A DNA stretch of 64,000 nucleotides from Actinomycetota bacterium (GTDB taxonomy: Bacteria; Actinomycetota; Actinomycetes; Streptosporangiales; Streptosporangiaceae), in NCBI GenBank assembly GCA_003168255.1, contig PMSU01000055.1, positions 42,551 through 106,550 of the forward strand, read 5' to 3'. Each line of letters opens with the position of its first letter. Positions within the stretch are counted from its first letter, which is position 1. The notes beneath the pieces are model-generated. The model searched no databases, was not told where the DNA came from, and saw only the letters and a program-made list of their open reading frames with translations. Below are positions 13,281 through 28,568 of the stretch, piece after piece. Made by a program: the position numbers and the translations under genes.

Positions 13281-13640
13281 TTAGCGCTGTTCCGATGGTG
13301 CTGATGTGAGCGCAGCCTCGGCGGGAGCGACGTCGCCGATCGCGAAGTCGTAGATGCTGCTGAAGCAGGCGCCCATGCCGACGCCGAGAACGAGGATCGA
13401 GGGGGCCACGGCCCCACGGCCCCACGGCCCCACGGCCCCACGGCCCCACGGCCCCACAGCGCCAGCGAGGGTGATGTCCAGGCCGATAATCACGAGCACC
13501 CGCCCGCGCTTCCCGATCAGCGGGCGGCACACCAGGGACGCGACGATTATGCCGATCATGAGCGGGCCCAGGGCGATCGCGGCCGCGGCAGGCTTCAGCC
13601 CGAGCGCGGTCTGGAAGAACAGCGAGATGACATGGGACAC
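13281..13640 (-). pseudogene. MFS (DHA2-like) transporter remnant, 3' half
   Basis: SHVISLFFQTALGLKPAAAAIALGPLMIGIIVASLVCRPLIGKRG; no N-terminal half; contains an 8-bp tandem array; a matching TM-helix remnant lies at ~14120-14185. Confidence 0.65.
13410..13457. repeat. 8-bp tandem repeat, 6 perfect copies of GGCCCCAC
   Basis: Direct reading; a shortened copy GGCCAC precedes it at 13404-13409. Confidence 0.97.
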
Positions 13641-14020
13641 GTCGTGGAATAATCCGTCGTTTCCTGATCCCGGACGATCGTGCGGTGCCCGCGGACCCGG
13701 CCGACCGGGTCACTCCCGCCACACCGGAACCATCGACCCCGTGAGCCACGTCTTCCGGAGCGCCGCCGAAGATCGATGTGGCATTGCCTACCACCGGTGG
13801 GGGGCTCTGCCACATCGATCATGGAAACGATACGGAAAGGGGCGTCTGCGGGCCGCCTTCCCCGGTGCCGTGCGGGCGCCGGCTGTTCGAGGACTCCAGA
13901 CGATAGCGTGCCAGAACCGCCGCGCACGGTCACGCGCCGGCTTACGTCCCGCGCGCTAGCTAGCGCGCGGCCCGGCGGCTTACGGTCCGCGCGCTAGCCA
14001 GCGCGCGGCCCGCCGGCCTT
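13638..14020 (+). repeat. Dispersed structured repeat, copy A
   Basis: Colinear, highly similar to the reverse complement of ~28100-28446; contains a 50-bp hairpin (13771-13820). Confidence 0.9.
13939..14014. repeat. 38-bp tandem duplication of a palindromic unit inside copy A
   Basis: 13939-13976 and 13977-14014; the first contains the perfect 22-bp palindrome CCGCGCGCTAGCTAGCGCGCGG (13949-13970). Confidence 0.9.
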
Positions 14021-14314
14021 GGGCGGGCACCCCTGAGTTCTTGCCGGGCGCCCCGGCCCGACCTGACCTGACAATCACGAAACCTGCGGCCTACCTCTCT
14101 GCGGGCCCATAGGCCAGGCCATTGACTGCGGCGAAGAACGCCAGGCCGAGCAGCAGGCCGGAGGTGAATCCCGTTCGGGCTGGCGCCGGTGCCGATCATC
14201 GGGATCTCCACGGCCATGTCGACCAGATCGAATTGTGCTGAGTGGCGGCGGCGGCCATCGCCGCGCCGGATCGCCGTGTCAGCATGGGCACCGTGCCAGA
14301 GGTGACAGCGGAGT

Positions 14315-27978: not shown

Positions 27979-28110
27979 ATCGTCCGGTATCCAGGCAGGG
28001 TTCGCCTGCATACCGGGTCAGGTCGCTGGCGGTCAGCACGCCCTGGTGGTCCAGCCGCCGGTCGTGCATGGCCCAGAAGCTGCCCTGCCGCTCCGCCCGC
28101 CGGGGCCGGG
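27978..28110 (-). pseudogene. Thioredoxin/DsbA-like remnant
   Basis: ERQGSFWAMHDRRLDHQGVLTASDLTRYAGEPCLDTGR resembles the DsbA/NhaA-thioredoxin helix region; truncated at copy B. Confidence 0.45.
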
Positions 28111-28446
28111 GGGCCGCGCGCTGGTGAGCGCGAGGACGTAAGCCGGCGCGTGACCGTGTGCGGCGGTTCTCGCGCGCCGCCGTCTGGAGTCCTCGAACAG
28201 CCGGCGCCCGCACCGGCACCGGGCAACGCGGCCCGGAGGCGCCTCCTTCCGCATCGTTTCCAAGATCGATGTGGTGTAGCCCACCACCGGTGGTGGGCTC
28301 CGCCACATCGATCTTCGGCGGCGCTATGGAAGACGCGGCTCACGGGGTCGGTGGTGCTGGTGTGACGGGAGTAATCCGGCCGACAGGGTCCGCGGGCACT
28401 GCAAGATCGTCCGCGATCAGGAAACGACAGTTTATTTCACGACGTG
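28095..28446 (-). repeat. Dispersed structured repeat, copy B (inverted relative to copy A)
   Basis: Reverse complement colinear with 13638-14020; hairpin 28264-28313 with perfect core GCCCACCACCGGTGGTGGGC. Confidence 0.9.
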
Positions 28447-28568
28447 CTTACTGCCGACCCATCAACGACTCAGGACGCTGGCTCAGCGCATGCTTTGGTC
28501 AACAGCGCGTCACTGTACAAACGAATTCCTGACAGTCCCAGCCTGCACCTCGCCAGAAAGTCTGCGGC

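Follow-up and report, generated by a model that had tools for sequence, protein, structure and literature searches.

The window analysed here, a stretch of 64,000 nucleotides (C154:42551–106550) in the draft genome of an uncultured actinobacterium, carries two related sequences in opposite orientations, which raises the question of whether they are a local duplication, a structured RNA or copies of a mobile element. A preliminary description of the window had claimed two inverted, colinear copies 14 kb apart. Alignment confirmed this arrangement over ~350 bp with few indels, and by BLAST copy B gives an 86% match to copy A (E 2.7e-109); the extents originally claimed did not stand and are corrected in Table 1, copy B running from 28449 down to ~28094. 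Copy B lacks the final ~80 bp of the element and reads AA in place of the terminal GG. Both repeats are very probably copies of a MITE, a non-autonomous, gene-less DNA transposon, which spread in a burst and has since decayed.

Table 1. Positions of the repeat copies, their parts and the split gene in the window, and of the stand-alone palindromes elsewhere in the genome
Feature	Position	Strand	Remark
Copy A, complete element, 474 bp	13635..14108	+	Exceeds the ~429-bp reference partly through an extra 38-bp tandem unit
Copy B, inverted, right-truncated element	28094..28449	-	Reference positions ~5–352
Left terminal inverted repeat, copy A	13635..13669	+	
Right terminal inverted repeat, copy A	14074..14108	-	Reverse complement starts GGGCCCGCAGAGAGGTAGGCCGCAG
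Left 3-bp flank ATG, copy A, putative target-site duplication	13632..13634	+	One mismatch versus right flank
Right 3-bp flank ATA, copy A, putative target-site duplication	14109..14111	+	
Central 44-bp palindrome CGATGTGGC..CCACCGGTGG..GCCACATCG, copy A	13774..13817	none	
Central 44-bp palindrome, copy B	28267..28310	none	
38-bp unit, 2.2 repeats within copy A	13935..14017	+	
Decayed MFS-transporter gene, downstream part	13281..13631	-	Split by copy A
Decayed MFS-transporter gene, upstream part	14112..14175	-	
Stand-alone 44-bp palindromes (L147–L155)	C33:1190, C37:45603, C55:9286, C63:6435, C106:38562, C116:18193, C133:6637, C141:49, C168:13886		

The repeat is a dispersed family. The genome searched comprises 7,153,144 bases (a 7.15-Mb draft) in 214 contigs, and a BLAST search with copy A gave matches at 40 of 40 scored places among 288 first-look candidates. 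A pattern for the left part of the element occurs at 56 places and one for the right part at 28, and the reversed-pattern control gave none for either. Clustering of all ends yields about 83 copies; since some contigs end within copies, the count of ~80 is best given as a range of 70–85. For the anatomy of the element, 71 copies were fetched with their flanks, together with further ends. The preliminary description had proposed a comparison with the own genome and with relatives; BLAST, patterns and clustering together gave ~80 copies at home, and BLAST gave none in 60 relatives, all from other genera. The end motif gave only single matches at chance level in 150 genomes of the order, the palindrome pattern only single unrelated matches in 200 genomes, and the element was found neither as a pattern in a wider collection of genome contigs nor in plasmids, phages and viral contigs. 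The closest relative of the TrkA-type channel gene beside copy A is in the metagenome-assembled genome palsa_506 (L172) of an uncultured actinobacterium, at 86% identity; palsa_506 shares just this gene and therefore provides no empty site. From this match the host would be an uncultured actinobacterium too, perhaps one living in soil or peat.

Full-length copies measure ~429–430 bp and have fixed ends, GGRCACGTCGTG...CTGCGGGCCC, the left end reading GGRCACGTCGTGGAATAAACCGTCGTTTCC and the right end ...CTTACTTCTCTGCGGGCCC. The left end is constant in nearly all copies and the right end in ~30. These ends form imperfect terminal inverted repeats (TIRs) of ~35 bp: once reverse-complemented, the right end can be aligned to the left end starting at base 1, with 15 of the 25 end-anchored terminal bases identical and mostly transitions among the differences. 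The significance of the TIRs by local alignment is modest, as ~1% of the 50-mers in the window score equally, a few of them element-derived. A single degenerate motif, GGRCMCGYMGWGRARTAARCCGYMG, catches both ends, with 97 matches against none in the reversed control. Internal deletions that retain both ends are common, for example in L059 (reference positions 2–88 joined to 186–429) and in L081 and L091 (2–220 joined to 344–429). Other copies have lost the right part from about reference position 190–245, and some short copies (L050 and L118) stop at an internal CTGCGGGCC followed by TTA, resembling the true right end. The mobile unit ranges from 200 to 430 bp and has two defined ends. A retroelement-like (SINE) origin was considered for the copies with a fixed left and a variable right end, and was dropped because many internally deleted copies keep the right end and because the target-site duplication (TSD) has a fixed length of 3 bp.

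This duplication is seen in the 20 copies with both ends, where seven exact 3-bp flank duplications were found against 2.9 expected (P 0.006) and 39 of 60 flank bases match against 28 expected (P 0.001), the expectation being obtained by re-pairing right flanks at random. No signal was obtained in these copies for lengths of 4 and 5 bp at the same offset. The duplications are TWA-like, typically TTA, TAA, TAC and AAG, and many are imperfect or decayed. Copy A itself splits a gene. With the element and one copy of the 3-bp repeat taken out, the joined flanks read GFTSGLLLGLAFFAAVNGLAYVISLFFQTALGLKPAAAAIALGPLMIG... on the minus strand and restore a continuous MFS-like frame, in agreement with the earlier statement that copy A adjoins a gene fragment. 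The Pfam model MFS_1 spans the junction with E 7e-5, which is under its curated cut-off, and an OtrB-type model, also crossing the junction, aligns 63 residues on 64 positions with E 0.002; that the gene is short and decayed explains the weak match. A tblastn search of plasmids with the joined peptide gave no match. The decayed gene also contains a perfect 8-bp tandem array (CCACGGCC x 6.5) at 13406–13457 of the window.

The preliminary description had found neither a transposase nor a shared reading frame in the repeat, and both observations are borne out. The element matches no Pfam or NCBIfam family, substitutions among the family copies fall about equally on first, second and third codon positions, and of 60 net indels 50 break the frame, their lengths not being divisible by three. 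Its suggestion of a MITE-like element likewise agrees with the fixed ends, imperfect TIRs, 3-bp TSD, ~80 dispersed copies, non-coding sequence and intergenic bias. We infer that the transposase acted in trans. In this model, the imperfect TIRs of ~35 bp would be recognised by a DDE-type transposase, which would place the element at TWA-like trinucleotides and thereby duplicate 3 bp of the target. A burst of transposition in the lineage would have produced ~80 copies, most of them intergenic and some in the loop of another hairpin repeat; base substitutions, deletions inside the element and truncation on the right would account for the later decay. IS5-group and PIF/Harbinger-type transposons produce 3-bp TWA or TNA duplications. 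Our best guess is that the mobilising enzyme was IS5-group or PIF/Harbinger-like, because the family shares this 3-bp T/A-rich (TWA-like) duplication. The sole PF13359 locus of the genome differs in its ends from the family: it encodes a lone 323-aa DDE_Tnp_4/HTH_Tnp_4 (PF13359/PF13613) transposase at L122:1254–2225 (C154, outside the window), in surroundings without family-like ends. No autonomous element with the ends of the family was found among the PF13359 (one) and PF01609 (five) loci or the end-motif matches of the draft genome.

The placement and divergence of the copies bear on how the family spread. With a simple GC3-based gene estimate, 41 of the 47 insertions tested (87%) are intergenic against 21% of control positions, taken at random in the window, and no gene orientation is favoured. 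The mean distance of the copies to their consensus is 6.8%, and the closest pair is 4.3% apart, which indicates that the family probably spread in one old burst without recent movement. Mean pairwise divergence is 10.8%, the pattern is star-like and most branches of the copy tree lack resolution.

An alternative raised in the preliminary description is that of a structured RNA. The repeat would then be a dispersed non-coding RNA or cis-regulatory element kept for its action in RNA, as an attenuator, terminator or mRNA stabiliser, which the strong intergenic bias would suit. So would the central 44-bp palindrome, since the aligned copies hardly vary in its outer stem and its CCACCGGTGG apex; the invariance of the outer stem is partly by selection, as this stem was part of the rule by which copies were chosen. 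The middle of the stem, however, is variable and often mispaired, and its covariation barely exceeds that of shuffled alignments, being reached by 1, 25 and 212 of 500 shuffles on different scores. Folding of a full copy is likewise near that of shuffles (z -1.5 on one strand), the antisense strand folding slightly better than its shuffles (z -2.3), and no Rfam family matched the element. Copies are moreover found in all gene orientations, and deletion makes their sizes vary widely. We therefore consider a conserved RNA function very unlikely, and the MITE reading is retained.

The palindrome is not confined to the element. The inner 44-bp sequence (CGATGTGGC..CCACCGGTGG..GCCACATCG) also stands alone at about nine places in the genome, some of them perfect over 44 bp. 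These stand-alone palindromes have variable outer bases (GTCGT or CAAGAT) and form a short palindromic repeat family of their own in this genome. In many copies of the element, 'NN' occurs exactly within the central palindrome (L117, L119 and L120; C41:13201, C58:5454, C85:151578, C164:27631, C195:57807, C69:6882 and C15:44573), suggesting stalling of sequencing or assembly at the hairpin. An element that holds a palindrome also found by itself, with copies in intergenic DNA, might belong to a family of REP/REPIN-type palindromes that is mobilised by a REP-associated tyrosine (HUH) transposase. Against this, the family has a 3-bp TSD, which transposition by HUH enzymes is not known to produce. 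Its mobile unit of 200–430 bp with two ends is also unlike REPs, which are hairpins of 20–40 bp with a GTAG or CGTC tag (PMC3733652), and this origin appears even less probable than an RNA function. Weakest is the reading as a two-copy sequence that arose by local segmental duplication, for which the sole point is the inverted pair 14 kb apart and whose likelihood is negligible because BLAST and pattern searches of the own genome show the family dispersed in about 80 copies, on many contigs and with unrelated flanks; the restriction to just two loci that the preliminary description had envisaged does not hold.

The MITE copies are themselves connected with a second palindrome. About 15 element ends adjoin GTCGATGTGGCARCGCTG, followed by half a loop, ACRCTCTT or CTGWAA. 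One copy, L090, has such arms on both sides, and without the element its flanks read GTGGCAACGCTG-CTGAAAGAGTGT-CATTGTTGCCAC, one contiguous palindrome. The flank motif has 11 occurrences in the genome, each at an element end, including the place on C193. The palindrome has the arms GTGGCAGCGCTG and CAGCGCTGCCAC and the loop CTGWAAGAGTGT, with ~15 insertions at the same loop TWA in both orientations. The shared outer flank CGATGTGGCARCGCTGACRCTCTT was also considered as the mark of a subfamily with extended TIRs. Insertion into the hairpin loop was preferred to this, since the flank is found with the loop in either orientation, L090 is flanked on both sides and flanked copies do not group together on the poorly resolved copy tree, where 13 rows require 12 changes compared with 11.8 after shuffling. 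From these sequences we read the flanks as probable independent insertions, in both orientations, into the TWA of another hairpin repeat's loop. No more than about one-fifth of all copies occupy this position. No empty hairpin of this second type is present among the degenerate-search matches listed, and about nine palindromes of equal size with a different apex are unoccupied. It is possible, though we consider it unlikely, that the transposition machinery recognises the hairpin loop as such, the target being a folded or cruciform loop and not plain sequence. The left flanks of L040 and L076 show ~65 bp of inverted similarity (82%), possibly a third repeat serving as a target. The loop hotspot and the stand-alone inner palindromes make the family a usable case for how MITEs and REP-like palindromes arise from, or target, each other.

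Repeated insertion at one spot in a palindromic repeat has parallels in IS1397, ISKpn1, IS621, ISPpu9/10, ISRm22 and other insertion sequences, which insert into REP palindromes (PMC1525189); here, in contrast, it is a MITE that inserts, and the loop accounts for only about one copy in five. The bacterial MITEs QMITE1 and QMITE2 of Coxiella burnetii, Chunjie of Geobacter and Correia of Neisseria are similar in their size of ~200–400 bp, TIRs, short direct repeats, lack of genes, tens to more than 100 copies, mostly intergenic position and many truncated or internally deleted copies, and QMITE2 also encloses a REP-like palindrome (PMC10969869). Variable size, truncated forms and a REP-like palindrome inside the element all have precedents among prokaryotic MITEs (PMC10969869), as does insertion into palindromes among IS elements; we therefore call this a new MITE family within a well-known class. 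Searching the 2024 review on prokaryotic MITEs by keyword gave no actinobacterial example (PMC10969869). The present family differs from QMITE1/QMITE2, Chunjie and Correia in its ends (GGRCMCG...), its 3-bp TWA-like TSD and its uncultured actinobacterial host, and adds to them an actinobacterial MITE family that is rich in copies and restricted to its lineage.
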